This document shows, piece by piece, positions 10,096 through 44,089 of a stretch of 64,000 nucleotides of DNA (within the stretch, counting starts at the first letter, position 1; each line of letters starts with the position of its first letter). The stretch covers positions 1-64,000 of the forward strand of contig JAQCEQ010000010.1 of assembly GCA_027618565.1 (NCBI GenBank). The letters run 5' to 3'. Below the pieces are notes generated by a model. That model did not search any database. It saw only the letters and a program-made list of their open reading frames with translations, and was not told the DNA's origin. Position numbers and translations under genes: made by a program. Origin of the DNA: Planctomycetota bacterium (GTDB lineage Bacteria; Planctomycetota; Phycisphaerae; Phycisphaerales; SM1A02).

Positions 10096-11097
10096 ATGAC
10101 CGCCCACCCGGACGAATCCGCGTTCTTGGCAGCCGTCATCAACGCGGAGGCCACAGCGCTCACGCGGCTGGCCGCCGCCATCGAGACCGATTCAGGACCC
10201 CATTGGGGTGCGGCGCTGGATCTCCTCGCCGCGACGGACGGGCATGTGGTGGTTTGCGGCATGGGAAAGAGTGGGCTGGTGGGACAGAAGATCTCCGCCA
10301 CGCTGGCCAGCCTGGGCCAGCCGTCGCACTTCGTGCATCCCGCCGAGGCGGTGCACGGCGATCTTGGGCGGATTCGCCGAGGCGACTCCGTCATGCTCCT
10401 CAGTTTCAGCGGGGAGACGGCAGAGGTGGTGGACCTGGCGCTCATCTTGAAGGCCGACGGCATTCGACGGCTGGGTGTGTCGGCGAAGCCGGATTCGTCG
10501 CTCGCCCGCGCCTGCGACGCCCACATCCCGTTGGGGAACATCACCGAGGCGTGCCCCCACAACCTCGCACCGACAGCCAGCACCACCGCGATGATGGCGG
10601 TCGGCGACGCCTTGGCCCTGGCGCTGGCGCGCCGACGCAACTTCGCGGCGGATGACTTTCACAGGCATCACCCCGGAGGGATGCTCGGTGCCGGGCTGCG
10701 TTCGATCACTGAGATCCTCCGGTTCCGCGTTGGGGAGAACCTCCCGTGCCTGTCGCAGTCCCTGAAGGTGCGCGAGGCGATTGCGCAAGCGGGTGCCGGC
10801 CGTCGGGCGGGCGCGATGGTCGTCGTGGACGCTGCCGGCGCGCTGGCCGGCATCTTGACCGACGGCGACATCCGGCGCCTCCTCAATGAGCACGGCGAGT
10901 CGATGCTGGGCAAGTCGATGGACGAAGTGATGACTCGTTCACCGCGCTCGCTGCCGTCCAGCGCCGTCGTGGCCGATGCGGTCCGCATGGTGCGTGAGCA
11001 GCGCATCGACGAGATCCCCGTCGTAGACGCCGCAGGCCGCCCGATCGGCTTGGTCGATGTGCAAGACCTCGTCGCGATGAAGGTCGTGAGCGAGTAG
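10096..11097 (+). CDS. kdsD: D-arabinose 5-phosphate isomerase (SIS + two CBS domains)
   Basis: It converts ribulose 5-phosphate to arabinose 5-phosphate, the first step of Kdo synthesis for LPS. The N-terminal SIS domain (about 35-180) has VVVCGMGKSGLVGQKISATL, the sugar-phosphate loop SFSGETAEV and SASTT-like substrate residues. Two CBS domains (about 205-333) include LTDGDIRRLL and the end motif GRPIGLVDVQDLV. The 333-aa length is standard for KdsD/KpsF. KdsC, a later enzyme of the same pathway, is encoded at 37063-37653 on the other strand. The ATG follows TAGCCT by 7 nt. Confidence 0.94.
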   Translation: MTAHPDESAFLAAVINAEATALTRLAAAIETDSGPHWGAALDLLAATDGHVVVCGMGKSGLVGQKISATLASLGQPSHFVHPAEAVHGDLGRIRRGDSVMLLSFSGETAEVVDLALILKADGIRRLGVSAKPDSSLARACDAHIPLGNITEACPHNLAPTASTTAMMAVGDALALALARRRNFAADDFHRHHPGGMLGAGLRSITEILRFRVGENLPCLSQSLKVREAIAQAGAGRRAGAMVVVDAAGALAGILTDGDIRRLLNEHGESMLGKSMDEVMTRSPRSLPSSAVVADAVRMVREQRIDEIPVVDAAGRPIGLVDVQDLVAMKVVSE

Positions 11098-22106: not shown

Positions 22107-22152
22107 CGGGCGGAAACGATAGTGGATGCCGTCGGCGTACCATGAGCGATCC
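22107..22152. promoter_or_regulatory. Divergent SDR/AsmA-like promoter region
   Basis: TATCGT (22116-22121, minus) ends 9 nt before ATG 22106. TACCAT (22138-22143, plus) ends 9 nt before ATG 22153. The second site favours 22153 over the in-frame ATG at 22126. Confidence 0.45.
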
Positions 22153-25100
22153 ATGGCGCAGCGCTCCGATGCCAGCCCCCGACGGCGGGCGAGCCTGCCC
22201 CAACGCATCTGGCGCATCAACCTCCGGTGGATTGGGATCGCGTTGATCCTGCTCGCGGCGGTGCTGCTCGACGGCCGCGCTCCCCGACACCTTCTGGCAC
22301 TTGCGCTTGGCCGAATGGTGGGTGCGGATTGCACGATCGACAGGCTTCGGCTGGAGGGCGCCAACCTCGTCGCGCGCGATGTTCGATTCAGTGCACCGTA
22401 CTGGCAGGGTCCCGGCGCCGAGGTGGCGCGGGTGGACACCGTGCGCGCCGATGTGGACTGGTGGTCGGTGCTGCAGTTCAGCCCACGGCTGGACGCCCTG
22501 GTCCTGGACGGCGGCCGGCTGCAGTTGGTGGAGTCGGAACGGGATCCACCCACCTTCAACATCGGTGCGCTTCGCACCATCCGGACGCCGCGCGCGGCGG
22601 AGGGCGCTGTCGCGGGAGAGCTCCCCTTCGACTCGCTCGAGATCAAGAACTTCGTCTACCAGACTGGCGTCGTCGGTCCTACTGGGCTTGAACTGGGTCA
22701 GCAAGTCCCGCTGGAAGTCAGCTGCACCAAGGTGGACCCATCCAGCTCGACCTGGCACGTGACGGCAGGGTTGCCAAGCGCCTCCATCTTCATCCAGGGC
22801 GCCTACGACGCTGGCTCGACATCCCTCTCGCTGGACCTGAAGCCGATGCCCTGGAACGAGACGCTGCTCGATCTCGTCCCAAGCCGCGTGCGCGCCGTCC
22901 TCGCCGCGGCGAAGCCTGACGGGACGATCAGTCGTGCGACCTTTGTCGCCGTGCGCAACCAAGTCCCGAACGTGCTGCTGTCCATCCGGGGGTTCGGCGC
23001 CCAGCTCCCGAAATCCATGGTCCCCAGCACCTGGGTCACGCTTTGCGGTGGCTTGGTCAGCCCCACCGAAGGAACGCCGGCGCTTCGCGTCGATGAGGCG
23101 GACGCGGAGCTGACCGCGACCATGGTCCGGTTGACCTCCCTCAAGGGCGCGCTCATCGCTGCCGGGACGAGCGACCTTGATGCCGAGATTCCGATCGCGG
23201 CGAGCGGTTCGATCGACCTCGCGTCGCTGCCCCCGGTGGCACCGGGTGAATCGACCAGCCGCCTCTCACAGCTGCTCGATCGCGCGGCCTTCTCAATCGA
23301 GCTTGACATCCCTGGATTTCGGCTGGAACGGGCCGGTACGGGCAGCTGCATCCTTCTGCCCAAGGGTGTCGCCGACGCCTTGGACAGCCTCAGTGTCACC
23401 TCCATGGCCTTCGACCTGACCGCCTCGCTCCGTCGCGATCGAAGCGACCTCGGTGCCACCCCGGCACCGATCCAGTCACGAGCGACGATTCTCTTCCTGG
23501 ACGGTTCACTGACGCCTCCGCAATTCCCACTTCCCCTGAGCGGCATCGAGGGCATCGTGACGGTTGACCCGGATCGAATCGACTTCACTCGACTCACGGC
23601 GCAGGCCCCGGGCAACGCCAGCATCTCGATCTCGGGAACCGTGGAGGACCTGGCGGGACCTCCCACGCTGGACCTGAGGATCGGCTGCCAGGGCATCACG
23701 ATCACGGATTCGCTCCGCGGCGCCGTGGACGCAGTGGCCGGCGACATCCTGGACGAGATCTTTGACCAGGAATCAGCAGATGCCATCGCTCCCGCCGTGG
23801 AGGCCGCCGGGTACGGCCCGTTCGTCCCGGGGGGACGGGCGGCCTTTCAGTTCCAGGTTCGCCGCTCGACACCCACCGACACTCCCGTCGAACTGCGCGG
23901 GGACCTGCGGATCCTGCAGGGGCAGGTGCTCCTGCGAACCTTCCCGCTCCCCCTCGTCGGAACGGGTGGCCTGCTCCACTTCGAGCCCGACGGCGTCACC
24001 ATCGTCGAGCCGATCCAATTCTGTTCGCTTGCCGGAGGAACCGGCGCGGTCGGCGGAGCGGTGCGATTCACTCGGCGCGACGATGGCCTCCTCATCGGCG
24101 TCCCAGACTTGGAATTCTCCGCGACCGGAGTACCAGCCAACTCGCTCCTCTGGCGAGCGGTGCCTCCAGCGGTGCGCGCCGAGTACGCCGAGTGGCCGGC
24201 CAGCCCATCGCTGGAGGGCTCCATCCTCTCCTCCTTGCATCCCCTCGGGACCTTTAGCGTGTCCGGCAAGGTGCTTCGATTCGGCGCGGAGCCGGAGTTT
24301 GACATCGTGATCGATGTGTCGGACGCCTCGTTCGGCCCGGCGATCGATTCCGTCGCACCCGATCACATCGGCTGGCCGGAGCGGCTGGAGCTCACCGACG
24401 CCAGCGTCCGGGTCCGCATCACGCCCGGTCGGGTGGCCTTGGAACGCGCCGCAGGAGACTCCTGCGGAGGGAGGGTGGTGGCCGCCGGCATCATCTCGGG
24501 TGACCTGACCGACATCGACATCCACGCCAGCGAGCTGGAGCTTGGACACACCCTTGAAGCCCTTGGACTGATCGATCCCAGAGTCCCCCCGGCGTGGTGG
24601 AGCAGCGCACGGCCCGTCGGGACGCTCGATGCCAGGGTGTCGATCGAGGGTGCCTCGACAACGGCATCGGTCGTACCGACCGTGCTCGAGTTCACCCTTG
24701 GCGGCGAGCGACTCGAGTCCCGCTGCGAAAAGGGAACCATCTCCATCAACGACCAAGACATCCTCATCGATGGGCTGCGGTTCCTCGTGAAAGATGCATC
24801 GAGCGACCCGCCGTCCCTCTCGGACGCAGACGAGGCCGCCACCGATCCGGTGCTCGTCGACCTCACGGGACGCGTGAAGCGCGCCAGCCCTGGCGACGGC
24901 GAGTGGGGCGTGACGATTCCCCAGGCATCCCCGGCCTCGGCGCTGGTGCGCGGCGCATTGAGGGAGGTGGGCGCCGAGGACCTGGCCGACATCTTGCAGC
25001 GCCTCGGATTGGGGCTTGACGCCTCCGCGCACGCGGCTGGGGTTGGCGCACGCCTGGAGCGCCTCGACATCGTGCCGACGCGAGCGACCGTTGGAGTCGG

Positions 25101-26193
25101 AACCGCCCACCCACTCACGGTGGAACTCTCGCCCGCGGCGCGCATGGTGATCCAGGACGGCACGATCCTCTCGCGCGACCTCGAGGGACGGCTTCCCGGC
25201 GGGACCCTCACGCTTGGCGTGGAGGGTCACCTCGGCGATGACTCAAGGCCTGGATGGGGCCGCGTCACCGTGTCGGTGGCGGCCGACGGATCGCCATCGC
25301 TCCTCTCGCTCGTCCCCGAACCTGTCCGATCGTCCCTTCAAGGGCTGGACTTTGAACCGGGACAGCGAGTCTCGCTCCTCGCCGGAACCGTTTCCTGGGA
25401 AGGTGGCTCGGCGCGGGCGGAGTTCCCGGTGGGCTTGACCGGCGCGCGGATCGACTTCGGCGTGCCCATCGAGGAGTATGACGGCTTGGTGGATGTCGTC
25501 ATCGACGACCAGGATTGGAGCGTGGCCTGCTTTCCGGTGGATGCCTGTGTGGCCAACACTCCAGCGAGGCTTCCGTCGGCCCTCATCCAAGGTGGCTCGG
25601 ACACTTCCGCGATCCGCGCCCGCGTGGATGTCCCGGTGGGTCACGGCATGGTGTCCGGAAGGGTGACGGTGGACGAAGGAAGGTGGACAGTCGATGTGGA
25701 GGCTTCGGAGATTCCCTGGTCCGATCTGCTTCGTGCGGCCGGGGTCCACACGACGGCACCGGGGATCGTCGAGGGCCGCGCACGGGTCGCGGGCGGTCCG
25801 CTCTCCACGCTGGCCGGGTCGGGATCGATCCGTGTCACGGAAGGTGACTTTGGCGCTCCGCCCCCCGATTTCTTCAACCCCGTGCGCCTGGGGAGCGACA
25901 ATCGACTGTCCGAACTGGACGCCACGCTCTCGCTCGACGGGGACACGCTCACGATCGTGGAGTCCGAGCTCCGTGCCGGAAAGTTCCGGCTCCTGGGCGA
26001 TGGCTCGATCGACCTGGCGGACGCCACGATCAACGCCCGGATGCGCGGTCGTTCGCCCGTCCCGCTCCTTGGCGACTTGGTAGGCGCGGTGACGGACACG
26101 ATGGTGCAACTGGAACTGCGAGGACCCGTGGCGTCGCCGGAGTCTCACATCGTTCCCTTGCCTGGGCTACTCTCGCCCCGGAAGCAGCCATGA
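22153..26193 (+). CDS. Giant AsmA/YhdP-like membrane protein
   Basis: The 1346-aa protein has one N-terminal membrane helix (IGIALILLAAVLLDG) and then a very long periplasmic beta-rich body. The opening block (CTIDRLRLEGANLVARDVRF) and the C-terminal block (LDATLSLDGDTLTIVESELR, then GDGSIDLADATINARM) are typical of AsmA-superfamily proteins such as YhdP/TamB. These are thought to bridge inner and outer membranes and move phospholipids. Assignment is by architecture and end motifs. ATG 22126 is an alternative start. Its stop overlaps the next gene as ATGA (26190-26193). It fits the outer-membrane theme of the window. Confidence 0.8.
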   Translation: MAQRSDASPRRRASLPQRIWRINLRWIGIALILLAAVLLDGRAPRHLLALALGRMVGADCTIDRLRLEGANLVARDVRFSAPYWQGPGAEVARVDTVRADVDWWSVLQFSPRLDALVLDGGRLQLVESERDPPTFNIGALRTIRTPRAAEGAVAGELPFDSLEIKNFVYQTGVVGPTGLELGQQVPLEVSCTKVDPSSSTWHVTAGLPSASIFIQGAYDAGSTSLSLDLKPMPWNETLLDLVPSRVRAVLAAAKPDGTISRATFVAVRNQVPNVLLSIRGFGAQLPKSMVPSTWVTLCGGLVSPTEGTPALRVDEADAELTATMVRLTSLKGALIAAGTSDLDAEIPIAASGSIDLASLPPVAPGESTSRLSQLLDRAAFSIELDIPGFRLERAGTGSCILLPKGVADALDSLSVTSMAFDLTASLRRDRSDLGATPAPIQSRATILFLDGSLTPPQFPLPLSGIEGIVTVDPDRIDFTRLTAQAPGNASISISGTVEDLAGPPTLDLRIGCQGITITDSLRGAVDAVAGDILDEIFDQESADAIAPAVEAAGYGPFVPGGRAAFQFQVRRSTPTDTPVELRGDLRILQGQVLLRTFPLPLVGTGGLLHFEPDGVTIVEPIQFCSLAGGTGAVGGAVRFTRRDDGLLIGVPDLEFSATGVPANSLLWRAVPPAVRAEYAEWPASPSLEGSILSSLHPLGTFSVSGKVLRFGAEPEFDIVIDVSDASFGPAIDSVAPDHIGWPERLELTDASVRVRITPGRVALERAAGDSCGGRVVAAGIISGDLTDIDIHASELELGHTLEALGLIDPRVPPAWWSSARPVGTLDARVSIEGASTTASVVPTVLEFTLGGERLESRCEKGTISINDQDILIDGLRFLVKDASSDPPSLSDADEAATDPVLVDLTGRVKRASPGDGEWGVTIPQASPASALVRGALREVGAEDLADILQRLGLGLDASAHAAGVGARLERLDIVPTRATVGVGTAHPLTVELSPAARMVIQDGTILSRDLEGRLPGGTLTLGVEGHLGDDSRPGWGRVTVSVAADGSPSLLSLVPEPVRSSLQGLDFEPGQRVSLLAGTVSWEGGSARAEFPVGLTGARIDFGVPIEEYDGLVDVVIDDQDWSVACFPVDACVANTPARLPSALIQGGSDTSAIRARVDVPVGHGMVSGRVTVDEGRWTVDVEASEIPWSDLLRAAGVHTTAPGIVEGRARVAGGPLSTLAGSGSIRVTEGDFGAPPPDFFNPVRLGSDNRLSELDATLSLDGDTLTIVESELRAGKFRLLGDGSIDLADATINARMRGRSPVPLLGDLVGAVTDTMVQLELRGPVASPESHIVPLPGLLSPRKQP

Positions 26194-31596: not shown

Positions 31597-33591
31597 GTGA
31601 GCAGCAGTCGCCGCCGCTACGAGGAATACCGCGAGCGGCTGGTCCGCGAACTCTCGGACGCCAAGCGAGAGGGCACTGCGGTCATGCGGGCGGGAACGAC
31701 CGTGTCCCTACGGCGATCTCGTTCCTTCGCCGTCCTCCTGCGAGAGTTTCTGCGATTGCTTGGCGCTTCACGGGCTGGATTCGTCGTTGCGCTTCTGACG
31801 CTCACGGTGTCCACCGCATTCGCACTGGTCCCGCCGGCCGCCACCAAGTTTGTCATCGACAATGTCTTCGATCGGCGCCCGCTCCCGGAATGGCTGCGCC
31901 AATCGTTCCCCGACTCGTGGTCATGGCTTGGCACTCCCGAGGGACTGCTCAACGCGCTAGCCATCGGCATCCTCGTGTCGTCGATCCTTTCGATTGCCGT
32001 TGGCATCGGCGGTCGGTACCAGGCAACGCGCACGGTGAAGCGGATGCAGTCTTCGCTGCGACGGACCGTCTTTGACCACGCAGCACGGCTGCCACTCCAC
32101 CGGGTCCAGCGAATGAAGGCCGGCGGCATGGCCAGCATGCTGCGCGAGGACACAGGCGCCGTCGGCGACCTGGTGTTCTCAATGGTCTACAACCCCTGGC
32201 GCGCGATCGTGCAATTGGCGGGGAGCCTCACCATCCTGGCGTTGACCGACTGGCGGTTGCTCCTAGGGAGCCTGTTGCTCCTTCCGATGGTCTGGTACAC
32301 GCACCGCACCTGGGTCGGTCGAGTGCGCCCGGTCTTCCGGGACATCCGCCGGCAGCGCGATGCCGTCGACGGCCACGCCGCCGAAGTGTTCGGTGGCATT
32401 CGCGTCGTGCGCGGATTCGTGAGGACGGCCGCGGAGTCGGGTCGAAACCTCCAGTCGTCGCACGTGATGATCCGCCAGGAAATGCTGGCGTGGTGGTGGT
32501 CCAGGTCGATTGAACTGGTGTGGGCGGTCGTCCTGCCGCTCGCCAGTGCGCTGCTGCTCTGGTACGGCGGGCGTCAGGTCCTGGCGGGGTCGATCACGCC
32601 CGGCGACTTGATCCTGTTCCTGGCGTACCTCGCCATGCTCCTGGGGCCGATGGAGGCCTTGACCAACAGCGCCACCAACATCCAGTCTGGGCTCGCCGCG
32701 ATGGATCGCATCCTGGATCTCTGTGCCGAGCCGGAGGAACTGCCCGACGGGCCAGATTCCAGATCGGTGGGCCCAGCCTCGGTGCGCGGAGCGATCCGCG
32801 GCACCGGCATCTCCTACACCTACCCCGGCTCGGCCGCGCCCGCCGTGCACGGGCTCTCCTTTGACATTCCAGCCGGCACGATGACCGCACTGGTGGGTCC
32901 CTCCGGGAGCGGCAAGACCACGCTGTGCAATCTCGTGGCGCGTTTCTATGACCCAAGCAGCGGCGCCATCCAGCTTGATGGCACCGACCTCCGTTCCATT
33001 CGGCTGCACGACTTCCGCCAACTGCTTTCCATCGTTGAGCAGGACACCTTCCTGTTTGATGGCACCATCGGTGAGAACATCCGGTACGGCGCGCCGCACG
33101 CCAGTCCGGCGCAGCTGGCGTCGGCATTGGAAGCGGCCGGCCTCTCTGCCTTCGTGGCCACGCTCCCGGAGGGTCTGGAGACAGTCATCGGCGAACGCGG
33201 GGTGCGCCTGTCCGGTGGCCAGCGACAACGGCTGGCCATCGCCCGAGCTATCCTCTCCGACGGGAGGATCTTGATCCTTGACGAAGCGACCAGCAGCCTG
33301 GACAGCGAGTCCGAGGCGCATATCCAACGGAGCCTCTTCCGGCTCATGGAGCATCGGACCTCGCTGGTCATCGCCCACCGGCTCAGCACCATCCAGCACG
33401 CCGACCAGATCCTGGTCCTGGAGAACGGGACGATCATCGAGCGCGGCACCCACGCGCAGTTGATCGCCAGCAGCGGTCGCTACGCCTCCATGGTGCTCCT
33501 GCAGACCCAGCCGCCGCCCCGTCGCGTCCCGGGCAACACTACGATCGCGCCCGATGACGCTGACCTACAGCTCGTACCTCAAGATCCCTGA
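31597..33591 (+). CDS. MsbA-like ABC exporter (membrane and ATPase domains fused)
   Basis: The 664-aa half-transporter has about six membrane helices in residues 50-360, starting after a basic amphipathic N-terminus. The ATPase domain carries Walker A GPSGSGKTT, the signature LSGGQRQRLAIARAIL, Walker B ILILDEATSSLDSES and an H-loop (VIAHRLSTI). It functions as a dimer exporting lipids or drugs. A lipid A-core flippase role like MsbA is plausible given LPS genes in the window, but the family is broad. The only start is GTG 31597, since the nearby ATG 31588 is followed by a stop. The 3' end overlaps kynA by 38 bp. Confidence 0.88.
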   Translation: MSSSRRRYEEYRERLVRELSDAKREGTAVMRAGTTVSLRRSRSFAVLLREFLRLLGASRAGFVVALLTLTVSTAFALVPPAATKFVIDNVFDRRPLPEWLRQSFPDSWSWLGTPEGLLNALAIGILVSSILSIAVGIGGRYQATRTVKRMQSSLRRTVFDHAARLPLHRVQRMKAGGMASMLREDTGAVGDLVFSMVYNPWRAIVQLAGSLTILALTDWRLLLGSLLLLPMVWYTHRTWVGRVRPVFRDIRRQRDAVDGHAAEVFGGIRVVRGFVRTAAESGRNLQSSHVMIRQEMLAWWWSRSIELVWAVVLPLASALLLWYGGRQVLAGSITPGDLILFLAYLAMLLGPMEALTNSATNIQSGLAAMDRILDLCAEPEELPDGPDSRSVGPASVRGAIRGTGISYTYPGSAAPAVHGLSFDIPAGTMTALVGPSGSGKTTLCNLVARFYDPSSGAIQLDGTDLRSIRLHDFRQLLSIVEQDTFLFDGTIGENIRYGAPHASPAQLASALEAAGLSAFVATLPEGLETVIGERGVRLSGGQRQRLAIARAILSDGRILILDEATSSLDSESEAHIQRSLFRLMEHRTSLVIAHRLSTIQHADQILVLENGTIIERGTHAQLIASSGRYASMVLLQTQPPPRRVPGNTTIAPDDADLQLVPQDP

Positions 33592-34354: not shown

Positions 34355-37066
34355 CTAGCGGCTGACATCGCCGCGCGCATTCTTGACCTGGATCCGGCCA
34401 GTCGCCAAGTCCCAGATCGCCTCGACGGCATTCAACTGGGAGCCGCCCTGCAGCGGGGAGATCGTCACGACGCGCCCTTGGCGCGCCTTGAGGACCGCCA
34501 ACTGGGTCGTCGTGTCGTACTCCATCGACTCGCAGTCGATGTCGTACTCGGGAGTGCGCACCTTGCACCGACCTTCCGCGATGAGCCGCCGAAGCGTGCC
34601 CGCCGTGCCAAACTCCAAGGCCTCCGCCTGGGCATCGGTGCGGCCATCGGCGATCTCCACCGGTGCCCCCGCCCCTGCATCCCCCGATCCCGTCCGCTCC
34701 ATCACGGCGATGGCGCGATCGCAGGTGACCGTGGTCCGGGACTTCCGATCAAGGCCCAGGTGCCGAATCTCCACGCCCAACTCCATACGGAACTGGGACA
34801 GCCCGTCCGTCCGGTTCTCCAAGTGCATGCTCTGCTTCCAGGAGAAGCCGGTCACCCCCAGGGACCCGATCATGGAAGGTCCCGACGATGCTGGCTGGCC
34901 CGACTCTGCCGGGCGATTGATCAGGATGGACCCGGCGACCGGGACGATGGCTTCCTTGGTCGCGGCGAACCAGGTCACTTCGTCGCACTTCAGCTGGAAC
35001 AACTCTGGCTGCCCCGCGGAGCCATCCTTGGCGCCAGGCCACACCTGGCTCTGGAGCCTTACGCCGCCTATGGCTTGCATCTCGGTGAGCTCGAGGGGAC
35101 CGCCGGCGGCGCCGAACGCGCCCTGCGGCTGGCGTGCGGTCCCGATGCTTGGGACGAACTCCAGTTGCACCGAGCCGGCTTCAAGCGAATCCCGCTCGAC
35201 TGCGTCTGGCTCGGAGACAAGGTCCACCTCACCGACGACCAACAGCGTGGCACCGGCGTTCCCGCGATCGACAAATCTCATGCTCTCTTTCCACACCGCC
35301 CTGGTCTGCCGGTGGAGTCCCTCCAGATTCAGCGCCCCGACCCGGCCGTGCACATCGTCGGGCACAATCACCTCCGCGAAGATCGAGGCACTCCCGCTCC
35401 CCGGCGACATGACGGTACGAGCGGCCTCGTCCACCTGGAGGCGTTCGACATCGTGGAGCAGCGCGTTTCCCCGCACCACCTGCACGCCGGGACCGTGGAG
35501 TTCCGCCTGCCGCCGAGTGGGCCACGCCTGCACTCGGTCTCCCCAGGCTCGTGCGCCCTCGCGAAGCTGCAGCTCCACGCCGCCTTCGGCATCGGCACGC
35601 TCGATCTCGCTGGCGGCAACGAGCGAGTCATCCGAGGGGCGGGAAGTCGTGCCAGGCACCGCCGTGAATCGCACGCGCAATGACGACGACCAAAGCGTCT
35701 GCCCGACATCCGACGCCACCACCCCGCCCCGCGCCACCATCGAGCGCAGCCGAGTGGCTCCATCGACGCGATCCAGTTCCAGGTTGAGCTCCGGCGCCAC
35801 GAGCGATCGACCCCCGTCGTCGCCGACGCGCATCGGTTCGCCGTCAAGGAACACCAGCACTCCGTCGCGCGTGGCAGGGACCGAATCGGCCTCCGAGGCT
35901 CGCACCACTTCCAGCGGCCCATCCGCCCACACGGCGATCATGTCGCCACGGGTGGAGCGGGCGCCGCCAGCTGTCCCCTGGGAGGAGGGGTGGGCCGGCA
36001 GCGTCGAAGGCGCGCTGGCCATCACCAGCCACGGCACGAGTCGGGGAGCCAAGGGCAGTGCCGCGAACTCGGCTACATCCGTGGAAGAGCCCATCCCTCC
36101 CGCCACCTCCGGTGCGCCGGGAATCGTGAGGCCACCCGTGTCAACCAGGTCGCCCTCCAGGGAGAGCACCGCGAGAAGGTGGTCGCCACCGAAGGAACTG
36201 GACGGCCCTCCCGTGTAGCGCACAATGCGCACATTCTTCGTGAGCGTGACACGATGGAACGGGCTCACTTCTGGCCTGGGTGTCGCACCACGGGCCACCA
36301 CCAACGCTGGGGCGAGGCCGCCGCCGGCACGCTCGGGCGGGGCCCCACTGGCTTGGTCGAGCGCCTTGGACATCGAGCGGTCGATCACCAGGGGGCCGGT
36401 CAGCCTGGCCACATGGAGCGACTCCACGGTCCTTCGGTCGGCCGACATCTGGAGGTCGAGGTCTTCTCCCTCGAACCGAATGGTCGGCGTCGTCACGCGC
36501 GCGTCGTTCACGCAGCGCAGCGTCCCGTGCAGAAAGTCCACGTTGGCAGCACTGGCCTCGAACACCATCGACGGCGAGTCCGCACCCAGGTGCACGGTTC
36601 CATCCGACCCCGGTGCGAAGACCTTGGCGATCACGTCGCCCTCAAAGTCGCCGCGCTCCATGGCGCGCTGCGGCACATAGGTGCGTGCCCGCTCGGCTCG
36701 AAGCGTTACCACCCGTCCATCCTCCAGGTAGAAGACCGCGCGCGGCTGCTCCATCGCCAGCCACTGGCCGGGCTCCGGGTCCAGCCGCTGCGCACTGTAT
36801 TGCTGTGCCAACGTCCCGTCCGGGTTGGCGACCTGCACCCATCCACCCTTCTCCAGCTGCATGCCCGTCGGGCTGGACAGGTCAAGCGCCGGCGAACTGC
36901 TGACCCGATTGGGATCGAGCGGTGACGGAGGACGGACCGCATCCGCGTCCAGGACGGCCGGCTTGATTGGACCAGCGTCCGACAGGTCCCACCACCTCGC
37001 TGCGACAAGGAGGCCAGCCACCACCGCGATCCCAAGGACCGCGGACACCACGCCGCGACGGATCAC
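34355..37066 (-). CDS. Very large LptC/LptA (OstA)-like protein
   Basis: The 903-aa product (GTG 37066) starts with one membrane helix (VVSAVLGIAVVAGLLVAARW). It continues with a region resembling LptC (GGWVQVANPDGTLAQQYSAQ, then VFYLEDGRVVTLRAERA). Further blocks with LptA/OstA-like beta-jellyroll character follow, including a C-terminal block with RCKVRTPEYDIDCESMEYDT and VVTISPLQGG. LptC and LptA form the periplasmic LPS bridge, and each is normally under 200 aa, so this would be a fused and enlarged version. Assignment is by local motifs plus coupling (GTGA overlap, 37063-37066) to kdsC, which adjoins lptC in many Gram-negatives. Confidence 0.75.
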   Translation of the reverse strand: MIRRGVVSAVLGIAVVAGLLVAARWWDLSDAGPIKPAVLDADAVRPPSPLDPNRVSSSPALDLSSPTGMQLEKGGWVQVANPDGTLAQQYSAQRLDPEPGQWLAMEQPRAVFYLEDGRVVTLRAERARTYVPQRAMERGDFEGDVIAKVFAPGSDGTVHLGADSPSMVFEASAANVDFLHGTLRCVNDARVTTPTIRFEGEDLDLQMSADRRTVESLHVARLTGPLVIDRSMSKALDQASGAPPERAGGGLAPALVVARGATPRPEVSPFHRVTLTKNVRIVRYTGGPSSSFGGDHLLAVLSLEGDLVDTGGLTIPGAPEVAGGMGSSTDVAEFAALPLAPRLVPWLVMASAPSTLPAHPSSQGTAGGARSTRGDMIAVWADGPLEVVRASEADSVPATRDGVLVFLDGEPMRVGDDGGRSLVAPELNLELDRVDGATRLRSMVARGGVVASDVGQTLWSSSLRVRFTAVPGTTSRPSDDSLVAASEIERADAEGGVELQLREGARAWGDRVQAWPTRRQAELHGPGVQVVRGNALLHDVERLQVDEAARTVMSPGSGSASIFAEVIVPDDVHGRVGALNLEGLHRQTRAVWKESMRFVDRGNAGATLLVVGEVDLVSEPDAVERDSLEAGSVQLEFVPSIGTARQPQGAFGAAGGPLELTEMQAIGGVRLQSQVWPGAKDGSAGQPELFQLKCDEVTWFAATKEAIVPVAGSILINRPAESGQPASSGPSMIGSLGVTGFSWKQSMHLENRTDGLSQFRMELGVEIRHLGLDRKSRTTVTCDRAIAVMERTGSGDAGAGAPVEIADGRTDAQAEALEFGTAGTLRRLIAEGRCKVRTPEYDIDCESMEYDTTTQLAVLKARQGRVVTISPLQGGSQLNAVEAIWDLATGRIQVKNARGDVSR

Positions 37067-37653
37067 GAGACCCTCCCATCGATCACTTCACCGTCGCAGA
37101 CGCCCACGGCAGCCGGACGGCGCACCTCGAGCAAGATGTCGATCAACTCGCGCACGGCCCCGTGCCCCCCACGCGCCGACACCACGATGTCCGCGCGGCT
37201 GCGGACCTGTGCGACGGCGTCAGCCGGTGCCGCCGACACCCCGCACGCATTGAACGCGGCCATGTCGGGCAGGTCGTCGCCCATCATCAGCGCCTGGTCG
37301 GGGCGGACCCCGATGTCCGCGCACAGGCGCCTTGCCCCCGCAGCCTTGTCCTGGCATCCTTGGACCACCCGGTCCACGCCAAGTTCACGCGCGCGGTGTT
37401 CGACGACACTGCCGCAACGACCGGAGAGAAAAGCAACCGTGTTCCCGGCCCGGCGCCATTGGACGATCCCCAATCCATCCTTCACGTCAAACCGCCGGGA
37501 CTCGGACCCGTCCGCACCGACGAAGATGCCGCCGTCGGTGAGCACGCCGTCCACATCAAGGATCAGCAGGGTGACCTGAGAGAGACGCCCACGCATCGAG
37601 GGATCGACGGACGCGGCGGTCACGGCGCGAGTGTGCTCACCCTGGCTGGGCAT
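37063..37653 (-). CDS. kdsC: 3-deoxy-D-manno-octulosonate 8-phosphate phosphatase
   Basis: KdsC removes phosphate from Kdo-8-phosphate in the LPS inner-core pathway. The 196-aa HAD phosphatase has LILDVDGVLTDGGIFV (catalytic DxD), KDGLGI, AFLSGR, the Lys region CQDKAAG and MMGDDLPDMAAF, all KdsC-typical. It lacks a cap domain, as expected for the tetrameric C0 type. Residues 1-25 are extra. ATG 37653 is preceded by TACACT 7 nt upstream. It heads an operon with the LptC/LptA-like gene. Confidence 0.94.
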   Translation of the reverse strand: MPSQGEHTRAVTAASVDPSMRGRLSQVTLLILDVDGVLTDGGIFVGADGSESRRFDVKDGLGIVQWRRAGNTVAFLSGRCGSVVEHRARELGVDRVVQGCQDKAAGARRLCADIGVRPDQALMMGDDLPDMAAFNACGVSAAPADAVAQVRSRADIVVSARGGHGAVRELIDILLEVRRPAAVGVCDGEVIDGRVS

Positions 37654-38876: not shown

Positions 38877-38944
38877 AGTGTCCCACAAACCCGTGGAATC
38901 CGCAAGCCGACCCGCTTGACGAGACGCATCGAATGCGGGACACT
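38877..38944. promoter_or_regulatory. Symmetric divergent promoters of rpsT and the coiled-coil gene
   Basis: Minus strand: TTGCGG (38900-38905), 17 bp, GACACT (38877-38882). Plus strand: TTGACG (38916-38921), 17 bp, GACACT (38939-38944). The two -10s lie inside an 8-bp inverted repeat (AGTGTCCC 38877-38884, GGGACACT 38937-38944). The word ctcttgggttcc is directly repeated at 38849-38860 and 38943-38954. Confidence 0.5.
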
Positions 38945-38969
38945 CTTGGGTTCCCCACGGACCCACCCC

Positions 38970-40280
38970 ATGGCCACACGATCAGGCGAAACAGGCATTG
39001 TCGCAACCTTAGTGCTCTTCGTGATTGCCACCGTCGGCCTCTTGGTCGCGACGGTCCTCCTCTTCAATGCCAAGGGGGCGGCGGAGCGGGAAAGGGACGA
39101 GACCCGGAATGATCTGCGGTCGTCCGAGCAGAAGCTGGACGGGCTCGAGAAGGTGTCCCGCGAAGCGGCCTCGATCCTCGGCACCAACACGCTTGACCCC
39201 TCCGAGATCCGGATGGCCCTTGGCCTGAATGCGAACGACCGGGCCACGCAGGTGGTCACGACGCTCCGCCGTTCCATCAAGGACGCCGAAGCCCGACTGA
39301 AGGCACTCCAGCAGGAAGTGGACCAGACGCGACTCTCGGCGGAGACCGAGCGCGCCGCCTTCGCCGATGCCCGCGCCGAGTTTGACCGGGGCTTGGAGTC
39401 GATCCGCCAGGAACTCTCGGGGTTCCAGGACCTGGCCTCCGCCTTCGGTGCGCAGGTCGACGAGCTTCGCGACGACTTCGCCCGGTCCACCAACAACCTT
39501 CGGGAGGAGCATCGGTCCCGCCGGGACCTGCTCGAGGCACGGCTGAAGGACGCCGAGGAGGAGAGCGAGACGCTCACGGTCCAGGTGGAGCGACTGAACA
39601 AGATCGTCCGCGGCGCACGCGCGCGCGCCCAGGACGCTGCGACGCTGGTGGATGCACGGATCGTGGACATCACGCCTGACGGGACGATGCTGTTCGTCGA
39701 CCTGGGGCGGCGCGATCGCCTCCGCCCGGGGATGACCTTTGAGGTCTACAGCGATCCTTCGCTCATCACCAGCACCAACCGCATGACCGGCGAGGCGACG
39801 CCGATGGTCGGCAAGGCGACCGTCGAGATCCTTCGGGTCGGAGACACCACCTCCCAGGCCCGCGTCACCCGCCTCGCGCCGCGCGGCCAGATCCAGCGGA
39901 GTGATGTCCTGGCCAACCCGATCTACTCCCCCGACCACCAATACCGGTTCCTGGTCCACGGGCTGTTCGATGTCGACGGGGACGGGCTGCCGAGCCAGCC
40001 TGAGTCCGACTTCGTGCGGCAACGGATCGTGGATTGGAATGGCGCGGTGGCGGAGAGTGGCACCATGAGCGGCGATGTCGACTTCGTGGTCGTGGGCCTC
40101 CGCCCGATTCGCCGCCCTGCTCCCTCCATCGATGCGTCGGATGCGGAGATGGCTGCGTACGCGAAGGCGGAGGAGCAGCTCGATCAGTACGACACTCTGC
40201 TTCGCGCGGCTGCCGAGGCTCAGATCCCCGTCCTCAACTGGAACCGACTTCAGGTGCTGACCGGCTCAGCGCAGCGGTGA
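38970..40280 (+). CDS. Coiled-coil membrane protein with a possible BRCT-like C-terminal domain
   Basis: The 436-aa protein has one N-terminal membrane helix (IVATLVLFVIATVGLLVATVL, core VLFVIATVGLLVATV) and then about 180 residues of charged heptad coiled coil (39-220). A small beta domain follows (ARIVDITPDGTMLFVDLGRR, RLRPGMTFEVYS). The C-terminal 110 residues read FLVHGLF, FVRQRIVDWNGAV, DVDFVVVG and AAEAQIPVLNWNRLQVLTG, an order of elements like a BRCT domain. That last point is inference. I do not recognise the family. ATG 38970 is chosen because the helix begins right after it. Its stop overlaps the acyltransferase GTG. Confidence 0.8.
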   Translation: MATRSGETGIVATLVLFVIATVGLLVATVLLFNAKGAAERERDETRNDLRSSEQKLDGLEKVSREAASILGTNTLDPSEIRMALGLNANDRATQVVTTLRRSIKDAEARLKALQQEVDQTRLSAETERAAFADARAEFDRGLESIRQELSGFQDLASAFGAQVDELRDDFARSTNNLREEHRSRRDLLEARLKDAEEESETLTVQVERLNKIVRGARARAQDAATLVDARIVDITPDGTMLFVDLGRRDRLRPGMTFEVYSDPSLITSTNRMTGEATPMVGKATVEILRVGDTTSQARVTRLAPRGQIQRSDVLANPIYSPDHQYRFLVHGLFDVDGDGLPSQPESDFVRQRIVDWNGAVAESGTMSGDVDFVVVGLRPIRRPAPSIDASDAEMAAYAKAEEQLDQYDTLLRAAAEAQIPVLNWNRLQVLTGSAQR

Positions 40281-41314
40281 CCCGCGTCGCGGACCTCGCC
40301 CAGTACGCGGCGCTCCGCGGCGCATTCGCGCTCTTCCATTCGTTTCCCGTCTCCGCCAACCTGCGTACCGCGCGGGCGGTCGCGCGCGCGTACATGGCCA
40401 TCTCCGCCAAGCACCGAGTCCGCGGGCGCCGACACCTTCGTGCCGCGTTTCCGGAGGCGACGGAGGCCTGGGTCCAGCAGACCAATCTCGCTGCCTTCCA
40501 GCACCTTCTCCAGCTGTTCATGGTGGAGGCGATGCAGACCCCGCGACTCATCAATCATTCCAGCTGGCACCGGCATGTTTCCGTCAACGCCCAGGACGGC
40601 GCACTCCGGCGGGCGCTCCAGCTCCTGGCGCAGGGGCGGCCCGCCATCTTCATCACGGGTCACTGTGGAAGCTGGGAACTCCTGGGATTCGTGCTCAGCT
40701 TGCTGGGACTCCCGATGGTTGCGCTGGCCCGTCCCCTCGACAATCCCTATCTCAACCGGTGGATCATGGGCGTGCGGGAGGCCCGCGGCCTGCGCATCCT
40801 CACCAAGTTCGGGGCCAGCAAGGAGGCCGTCCAGATCCTCCGTTCCGGCGGCCGCGTGGGCTTCATCGCCGACCAAGATGCGGGGATGGACGGAGTGTTC
40901 GTCCCGTTCTTCGGCCGCCTCGCCAGCGCCTACAAGTCGATCGCCCTCCTGGCCATGACGCAGGAAGTCCCCATCATCGTGGGAGGCGCCTTCCGCGATG
41001 CCGGAGGATTCCACTATCGGCTGGAGGTGGACGAAGTGATCGAACCGGAGGCCTGGTCCCACGCCACCGATCCACTGTACTGGCTCACGGCCCGATACAC
41101 CGCCAGCCTTGAGCGGATGGTGAGGCGGCATCCCGATCAATACCTGTGGATCCACAGGCGGTGGAAGAGCCGTCCGCGCCACGAGCGCGAAGGAGTCAGC
41201 ATGCCCACGCGGCTGGAGGCCAAGCTGCGGGAACTGGACTGGCTCTCCCCCTCGGAAGCCGATGCGATCATCAGTCGATCCGCGGCCGCGACTGGGGAGT
41301 GCCATGCCGCCTAG
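40277..41314 (+). CDS. LpxL/HtrB-like lysophospholipid (lipid A) acyltransferase
   Basis: The 345-aa product (GTG 40277, overlapping the previous stop as GTGA) belongs to the lipid A lauroyl/myristoyl acyltransferase family. It shows the catalytic H-x4-E motif in ITGHCGSWELLG, then VALARPLDNPYLNRWI, RSGGRVGFIADQDAGMDGVF and FFGRLA. These enzymes add secondary acyl chains to Kdo2-lipid A or related lipids at the inner membrane. Start 40277 removes an upstream stretch that lies in another gene's coding region. With KdsD/KdsC and Lpt genes nearby, lipid A is the likely substrate. Confidence 0.88.
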   Translation: MTRVADLAQYAALRGAFALFHSFPVSANLRTARAVARAYMAISAKHRVRGRRHLRAAFPEATEAWVQQTNLAAFQHLLQLFMVEAMQTPRLINHSSWHRHVSVNAQDGALRRALQLLAQGRPAIFITGHCGSWELLGFVLSLLGLPMVALARPLDNPYLNRWIMGVREARGLRILTKFGASKEAVQILRSGGRVGFIADQDAGMDGVFVPFFGRLASAYKSIALLAMTQEVPIIVGGAFRDAGGFHYRLEVDEVIEPEAWSHATDPLYWLTARYTASLERMVRRHPDQYLWIHRRWKSRPRHEREGVSMPTRLEAKLRELDWLSPSEADAIISRSAAATGECHAA

Positions 41315-43354: not shown

Positions 43355-44089
43355 ATGGCGTTGCTCGAGGCCGAAGGCTTGATCAAGTCCTACGCAGGCC
43401 GGCGGGTGGTTGATGGCGTCGGGTTCCATGTCGATGTGGGTGAGATCGTGGGACTCCTGGGCCGAAACGGCGCGGGCAAGACGACCAGCTTCCGGATGGT
43501 GATGGGGATGATCCGGCCCGAGGCAGGCGCCGTGAACTTCAGGGGGCAGGTTGTGACGCACCTCCCGATGTACCAACATGCGCGAGCCGGGATGGGCTAT
43601 CTCTGCCAGGAGCCGAGCGTCTTCCAGAAGCTGACCTGCGAGCAAAATCTTCTCGCCATCCTGGAGACGCAGCCCGGTGCTCACCAGCAGCGCCGTGTGC
43701 GCTGCGACCAACTCTTGCGCCAGTTCTCCCTGGAGCACAAGCGGACGGAACTGGCACGCACCTGCTCAGGGGGCGAGCGTCGAAGGCTGGAGATCGCCCG
43801 CACGCTGATCACGCGCCCCACGCTGATCCTGCTTGATGAACCGTTTGCTGCCGTGGATCCCCACACGGTGGAGGAACTGCAGGACGAGGTCAAGCGGCTC
43901 GCAGACACCGGGATCGCCATCCTGCTGACCGATCACAATGTCCAGCAGACGCTGCGTATCTGCGACCGGGCCTACATCCTCCATGAGGGGACCAATCTCC
44001 GCGACGGAAGCCCGAGAGACTTGATCCGCGACCAGGCGGTCCGCGAGGCCTACCTGGCGTCCACCTTCCGCGGGGATGAGTTCGACTGA
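43355..44089 (+). CDS. lptB: LPS export ABC transporter ATP-binding protein
   Basis: LptB powers LPS extraction from the inner membrane with LptF/LptG. The 244-aa ATPase has Walker A GRNGAGKTTSF, the Q-loop context GMGYLCQEPSVFQKLT, the signature CSGGERRRLEIARTL, Walker B LILLDEPFAAVDPHTV and the H-loop LLTDHNV. GIGYLPQExSxFRxLT and LSGGERRRxEIARAL are LptB hallmarks, and here Cys replaces Leu in the signature. LptF/LptG are not in this window. TAGACT ends 6 nt before ATG. Confidence 0.93.
   Translation: MALLEAEGLIKSYAGRRVVDGVGFHVDVGEIVGLLGRNGAGKTTSFRMVMGMIRPEAGAVNFRGQVVTHLPMYQHARAGMGYLCQEPSVFQKLTCEQNLLAILETQPGAHQQRRVRCDQLLRQFSLEHKRTELARTCSGGERRRLEIARTLITRPTLILLDEPFAAVDPHTVEELQDEVKRLADTGIAILLTDHNVQQTLRICDRAYILHEGTNLRDGSPRDLIRDQAVREAYLASTFRGDEFD

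Follow-up and report, generated by a model that had tools for sequence, protein, structure and literature searches.

E. coli has an LptC plus a separate LptA in its lipopolysaccharide (LPS) bridge (accessible part of PMC9972910). LptC (PF06835, TIGR04409) has an N-terminal membrane helix and then a beta-jellyroll, after which it ends, and LptA or LptH (PF03968, TIGR03002) is a separate periplasmic protein joined non-covalently. Because that chain is non-covalent, it is difficult to say how many copies of LptA the bridge of E. coli contains. Here we analyse a stretch of 64,000 nucleotides (nt) from a Planctomycetota bacterium of the order Phycisphaerales (assembly GCA_027618565.1, contig JAQCEQ010000010.1, positions 1 to 64,000; hereafter the window). 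At 34355..37066 on the minus strand it carries an open reading frame of 903 amino acids (aa) that we read, with a probability of about 0.8, as LptC and several LptA units in one chain, a covalent LptC–LptA bridge. We conclude that such a bridge is a new form of the known Lpt bridge.

The 903-aa protein resembles LptC in its N-terminal helix and following jellyroll, and the gene lies near kdsC in both cases, but it adds about 660 residues with jellyroll repeats. Because these further repeats run to the C-terminus of a protein of 903 aa, we file it as a fusion variant and not as a plain LptC. Its C-terminal part has the LptA fold; unlike in LptA, the units appear to form a single membrane-anchored chain. 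Homologous pieces also follow kdsC in Negativicutes, where the gene order is kdsC, lpxL, lptC, lptA, the gene of an ABC ATPase (lptB) and lptF. There, however, lptC (181–190 aa in the nine loci measured) and lptA (227–283 aa) are separate genes, both called in 9 of 11 loci. Pfam checks covered three of these loci (L142, L154 and L164), in L142 for LpxL, LptC, LptA, the ABC ATPase and LptF/G. The cluster is also described, with a pair of OstA proteins about 200 aa long, in the available portion of PMC5007114. By analogy only, the long MlaD of Veillonella parvula is likewise one long protein thought to span the periplasm and to replace soluble carriers, but it belongs to the MCE family and concerns phospholipid rather than OstA jellyrolls and LPS (PMC10665443, in the part available).

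For planctomycetes, the accessible text of a 2012 survey reports LptD and BamA in all genomes examined, only these two having been kept as specific and conserved enough, with TonB added (PMC3422733). A 2022 survey with hidden Markov models, in the part available, calls the Lpt and Tol-Pal systems “largely reduced” in a group of phyla that includes Planctomycetes (PMC8871954). Among the matches listed for the open-licence PMC literature, as far as the texts were accessible, we found none that reports LptC and LptA as fused in planctomycetes.

The gene starts with GTG and overlaps kdsC (37063..37653, minus strand), which encodes Kdo-8-phosphate phosphatase (TIGR01670, 137.5 bits, cut-off 106.95), by the 4 nt GTGA that contain the kdsC stop codon and the GTG start. 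A Shine-Dalgarno-like purine tract, GGGAGGG, is located 4 nt ahead of the GTG, within the end of kdsC (37071..37077, minus strand). Both frames are real, as claimed in a first-pass annotation of the window, and given the GTGA overlap the arrangement fits translational coupling of the two genes.

AlphaFold2, run on an alignment of 34 sequences, predicts with a mean confidence score (pLDDT) of 79.3 one N-terminal helix at residues 3–27 (36986..37060, this and the following segments all on the minus strand) and then 49 beta-strands. The single N-terminal helix expected from the first-pass annotation is thus present in the model; it resembles the anchor of LptC and would be inserted in the membrane. 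An LptC-like jellyroll follows at residues 66–234 (36365..36871). Residues 306–371 (35954..36151) form a disordered linker of 66 residues with pLDDT below 50, and the rest of the protein after the helix is mostly beta-strands. In our division, the remaining part comprises three OstA/LptA-like repeats, at residues 442–606 (35249..35743), 607–743 (34838..35248) and 744–903 (34358..34837). The first two are drawn from a profile self-comparison, in which residues 442–744 repeat as 607–886 (E 4.3e-13), the second also from the predicted strands, and the third from its matches to LptA and LptD.

Fold searches returned the Lpt jellyroll proteins. Foldseek against the Protein Data Bank (PDB) gave 22 matches at E<=0.001. 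LptD chains account for 14 of them and occupy ranks 1–7 (E 1.4e-7 to 3.4e-6); the remaining eight, with probabilities of 0.10–0.33, are large proteins of repeat, propeller and receptor type. Chains of LptC, LptH and LptA come next, with probability 1.00 and E 0.0018 and weaker. With VIA-align, the top structural match of the C-terminus is the N-terminal jellyroll of LptD (E. coli model at residues 668–903, Z 14.7, 156 residues aligned, root-mean-square deviation (rmsd) 3.1), followed by LptA 2r1a_B at residues 687–873 (Z 14.5, 129 of 134 residues aligned, rmsd 2.0). LptC 9dor_C aligns to residues 66–207 (Z 9.0, 128 aligned, rmsd 3.2). For the N-terminal part with the helix included, the LptC chains 6mit_C (residues 6–234) and 6mjp_C reach Z 12.1 and 11.8. 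The jellyroll folds for which the first-pass annotation asked to look are therefore found in the model, and they are of LptA, LptC and LptD type.

Profile searches point in the same direction. When a profile built from nine discrete LptC proteins of Negativicutes is aligned with the 903-aa protein, it covers residues 1–204, residue 1 against residue 1, with a probability of 95.4% (E 1.8e-8), compared to 0.2% for a KdsC control. The family profile finds 14 hits among PDB sequences at E up to 1, of which 12 are LptD or LptA (11 rows being LptD); the first 11 hits are all LptD or LptA, with a best E of 0.0037.

In Pfam, the 903-aa protein alone matches only PF06835, at residues 80–155 (E=0.28), and its only NCBIfam match is TIGR04186, a family of ribosomally synthesized and post-translationally modified peptides (RiPP; E 0.0079), with a score under the cut-off; we regard it as chance. 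The relatives are more informative. At E up to 1, PF06835 is found in 8 of 19 aligned members (best E 2.4e-7), PF03968 (LptD_N/OstA) in 7 (best E 8.5e-8), and the NCBIfam models LptC_YrbK and LptA in 9 and 6, respectively. Of nine members scanned singly, four pass the PF03968 cut-off and none that of PF06835; the latter is passed in 2 of 41 genomes, the 41 being that of the window and 40 from the same order. For the six cases in which residue positions were computed, LptC matches lie at 80–224 and LptD_N matches at 271–299 and 569–621; one relative (L043) has a weak LptC match far downstream, at residues 958–1005. The LptC-like start and the OstA-like blocks proposed in the first-pass annotation can thus scarcely be seen in the 903-aa protein by itself; they show in its relatives, at E up to 1, and in the predicted structure.

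The single 903-aa sequence matches 34 of the 41 genomes including its own, i.e. 33 of 40 relatives, so the frame is no chance frame; a first contig scan with the same sequence had found no relative. Of the seven relatives without a match, three (G025, G030 and G034) are later covered by profile matches, and a family member is suggested for two more (G027 and G035) by Pfam LptC matches that lie in frames of 1165 and 1255 aa. After the single-sequence, profile and Pfam searches, G023 and G038 are the only ones of the 40 still without a family match. G023, a genome of the same family with 2.0 Mb, has no homologue by the single bridge sequence and does have an LptD homologue, the match holding one TAG codon.

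Several LptA-sized units fit into the chain. The whole beta part contains 441 strand residues compared to 104 in the LptA-matched region, which corresponds to about four units. If strands with at least 11 residues are counted twice, the total is 68 sheet segments, or about 34 rungs. With a strand spacing of about 0.47 nm per rung, the beta part would be roughly 16 nm long, the jellyrolls of LptF and LptD being extra; this figure is a secondary-structure estimate (rung count times spacing) and no measured span. Lengths in the 19-row alignment range from 876 to 1441 aa. In the window protein and its three nearest relatives (4 of 19), the segment between residues 409 and 445 has 36 residues; the other 15 members have 144–240 there, so that the four are roughly one module short. 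The longest member (L039, 1441 aa) has about 300 extra residues further along.

The genome encodes the partners of such a bridge, LptB2FG and LptD. The ATPase gene lptB lies in the window at 43355..44089 on the plus strand (TIGR04406, 300.2 bits, cut-off 240). LptF and LptG are found together on a different contig, with scores above the Pfam cut-off but under the NCBIfam equivalog cut-offs, and LpxC is present outside the window, above cut-off. The LptD candidate is a separate gene with an outer-membrane barrel (contig 1, L083:3387-6473, minus strand). The candidate itself has no meaningful NCBIfam or Pfam match, and PF04453 finds nothing in the genome up to E=1; its identification therefore rests on homologues and fold. 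It is matched in all 41 genomes, its own included, PF04453 is found in 9 of 19 aligned homologues, and its AlphaFold2 model (pLDDT 77.2) aligns to LptD over jellyroll and barrel with E 6.9e-30. Residues 20–178 of this candidate form an extra, mostly beta N-terminal region of about 160 residues ahead of the standard jellyroll, and the listed full-length LptD alignments begin at about residue 218. Given this separate barrel-bearing gene, we rejected the idea that the 903-aa protein, which has no barrel, is an LptD misread as LptA.

Searches with PF03968 and PF06835 at E<=0.1 gave no convincing separate LptA or LptC in the 41 genomes, of which the two models match only 10 and 12, respectively. 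All ten PF03968 places fall in frames of 806–1370 aa, by coordinates three in LptD frames (G023, G028 and G040) and seven in the bridge gene. Of the twelve PF06835 places, eleven are in frames of 895–1255 aa, and the twelfth (G019:C128, 63 aa with two stops, E 0.066) is regarded as noise. In the genome of the window, PF06835 has no hit at E<=0.001 and at E<=0.1 hits the 903-aa gene only, the sole PF03968 match (E 0.88) falls in the LptD frame, and the family profile finds the 903-aa gene alone up to E=10. Together with the jellyroll fold, this result supports the earlier proposal of an LPS bridge that replaces multiple LptA copies; that it would be self-contained and carry LPS is our interpretation.

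These searches bear directly on an alternative in which an enlarged LptC only starts the bridge and a separate, very divergent LptA, or other oligomers, connects it to LptD. We consider this improbable. Pfam scores are poor in the lineage, so that a short LptA of divergent sequence might go unnoticed, and the model is interrupted by the linker at residues 306–371. Yet PF03968 at E<=0.1 appears in long frames in ten genomes and in no short frame, the family profile points to a single gene in the window's genome, and the C-terminus best matches precisely LptA and the N-terminal jellyroll of LptD.

A number of observations nevertheless weigh against a covalent LptC–LptA bridge. The window protein scores 11.2 bits with PF06835, under the cut-off of 21, and a profile of eleven discrete LptA-type proteins aligns best at residues 1–306, with a probability of only 76.3%. 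PF06835 and PF03968 cross-match each other's discrete proteins; such hits alone therefore cannot separate LptC from LptA and say more about the superfamily than about the subunit. Nor can the two be told apart by fold alone, since the LptC chains 3my2, 4b54 and 9doq fit the C-terminal part better than the first module (Z 10.9–11.9). The predicted template modelling score (pTM) of the model is 0.66, full-length Foldseek superposition onto LptD is poor (template modelling score, TM, 0.11–0.19, rmsd 30–38), the rmsd of the N-terminal LptC fits is high (24.9 for 6mit_C and 22.6 for 6mjp_C), and MORN-repeat proteins score up to Z 11.6 in VIA-align. The disordered linker may interrupt the groove. 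Finally, the Pfam models are weak in this lineage and miss its own LptD; a divergent discrete LptA could escape them, and the absence of discrete LptA and LptC is thus not proof.

Less probable still is an envelope bridge for another lipid, such as phospholipid or another glycolipid, comparable to AsmA-like or long MlaD proteins. Long single-chain phospholipid bridges have been proposed elsewhere (PMC10665443, accessible part), and the available text of the 2012 paper states that the planctomycete outer membrane still needs experimental proof (PMC3422733). Against this, the clear fold and profile hits are LptA, LptC and LptD, and the gene lies behind kdsC in a genome with LpxC, LptB, LptF, LptG and LptD. 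No AsmA, DUF748 or YhdP family was found in the Pfam scan of 19 members, and none occurs among the 50 matches listed in each fold search, so the 903-aa protein as an AsmA-like bridge is unsupported by the fold or profile lists, among the matches listed.

An artefact (a wrong frame, an assembly join of short lptC and lptA, or a decayed gene), for which broken copies in a few relatives could speak (an in-frame TAG in G004; split frames in L094 and L121), has a negligible chance and is rejected, as many stop-free long homologues come from genomes assembled independently, G010, G030, G034 and G039 being examples with no more than two contigs, and the predicted fold is mostly confident.

The gene type is not peculiar to this genome. 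The bridge gene adjoins kdsC in 15 of 18 fetched relatives, none being found at L045, L047 and L048. Of 549 confirmed kdsC loci, we also named the best 80, a sample biased towards relatives of a Phycisphaerae KdsC. By record name, 58 of the 80 were assigned to Planctomycetota, 51 of them with at least 3.5 kb downstream. In 43 of these 51 loci, the next gene after kdsC encodes 960–1532 aa (median 1102), and 37 of the 43 long neighbours match the family profile A3 at E<=0.01. Of the six that do not, one (L128) matches LptD_N weakly (E 0.007); for the other five (L130, L153, L157, L159 and L161) Pfam gives nothing up to E 0.1, and they are assigned by position and length only. In the remaining eight loci (L094, L096, L100, L121, L125, L145, L148 and L158) there is no neighbour of at least 900 aa, although L094, L121 and L158 match A3 despite shorter or split frames. 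Among 18 other loci with room, one (L134, record “bacterium”) has a long A3-matching neighbour.

A profile of 16 distant long neighbours (A5), whose names include Pirellulales, Gemmataceae, Fimbriiglobus and Rhodopirellula, matches A3 with E 1.2e-33, a comparison that is partly circular as ten A5 proteins already match A3; LptD_N is found in 10 of the 16 at E<=0.1. In a phylum sample of 119 genomes, a profile A1 matches 25 at E<=0.001 and 94 have no match; six of the matches are strong and within the order (own genome included), one is in the class and 18 are weak and elsewhere in the phylum. The phylum-wide claim therefore rests on the position behind kdsC and on profile A3.

Some loci deserve separate mention. 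The bridge gene appears split in L094 (8747-12135) and L121 (8508-11589), and one copy has an in-frame TAG (G004:C24); these could be sequencing errors or real breakage. A record named Limnohabitans (L091), whose kdsC is 61% identical to the planctomycete query, is probably a mis-binned contig. Two bacterial records, RGIG10100 from yak rumen (L146:8491-10808) and RGIG9704 from yak omasum (L155:8491-10813), have three tandem genes of 168–179 aa after kdsC and then a 249-aa gene. In the latter, the tandem genes match in turn LptC, LptD_N plus LptC, and LptD_N.

For a covalent LptC–LptA bridge we propose the following mechanism, in which the topology in the membrane, the docking at either end, the LPS cargo and the reach of one chain across the periplasm are all inferred. 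Within the LptB2FG exporter, the N-terminal helix would be placed like the LptC helix, and the first jellyroll would receive LPS from the jellyroll of LptF. The connecting stretch (about residues 270–440) and the three OstA-type repeats (442–903 in our division) would prolong the hydrophobic groove as far as the outer membrane, where it would meet the jellyroll at the N-terminus of LptD. LPS would thereby pass from the inner to the outer membrane along one long membrane-anchored protein.

The window contains further genes of LPS biogenesis, all on the plus strand. An MsbA-like ABC transporter, a probable lipid A flippase, is encoded at 31597..33591; TIGR02203 is its best hit (E 7.4e-131), with 437.4 bits under the cut-off of 602. 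An LpxL/HtrB-like lipid A acyltransferase at 40034..41314 has NF006270 as its best hit (E 2e-35), with 122.5 bits under the cut-off of 248. A kdsD-type arabinose-5-phosphate isomerase is found at 10096..11097 (TIGR00393, 249.6 bits, subfamily cut-off 203.7). A 1355-aa protein at 22126-26193 has weak DUF748 (E 7.9e-4) and YhdP (E 6.3e-3) matches, both under cut-off, and is possibly an AsmA-like lipid bridge, judging from its sequence. A 454-aa protein at 38916-40280 has an FlgT_C domain above cut-off and weak coiled-coil matches.

The route of LPS over the planctomycete periplasm was left open by the 2012 survey, in its available part (PMC3422733). As the length and the number of modules are fixed in a natural single-chain bridge, its span can be measured directly against the width of the periplasm. 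We also consider, as a tentative and rather doubtful extension, that the whole phylum has swapped the polymerising LptA chain for a covalent, ruler-like bridge with a module number tuned to envelope width; if true, bridge length would be genetically fixed instead of being set by LptA polymerisation. Fusion and divergence of LptA and LptC could be one reason for the “largely reduced” Lpt system of planctomycetes in the 2022 survey, in the portion accessible (PMC8871954). Should planctomycetes indeed have LptA and LptC in a fused and divergent form, the inventories behind arguments on outer-membrane evolution would need correcting.

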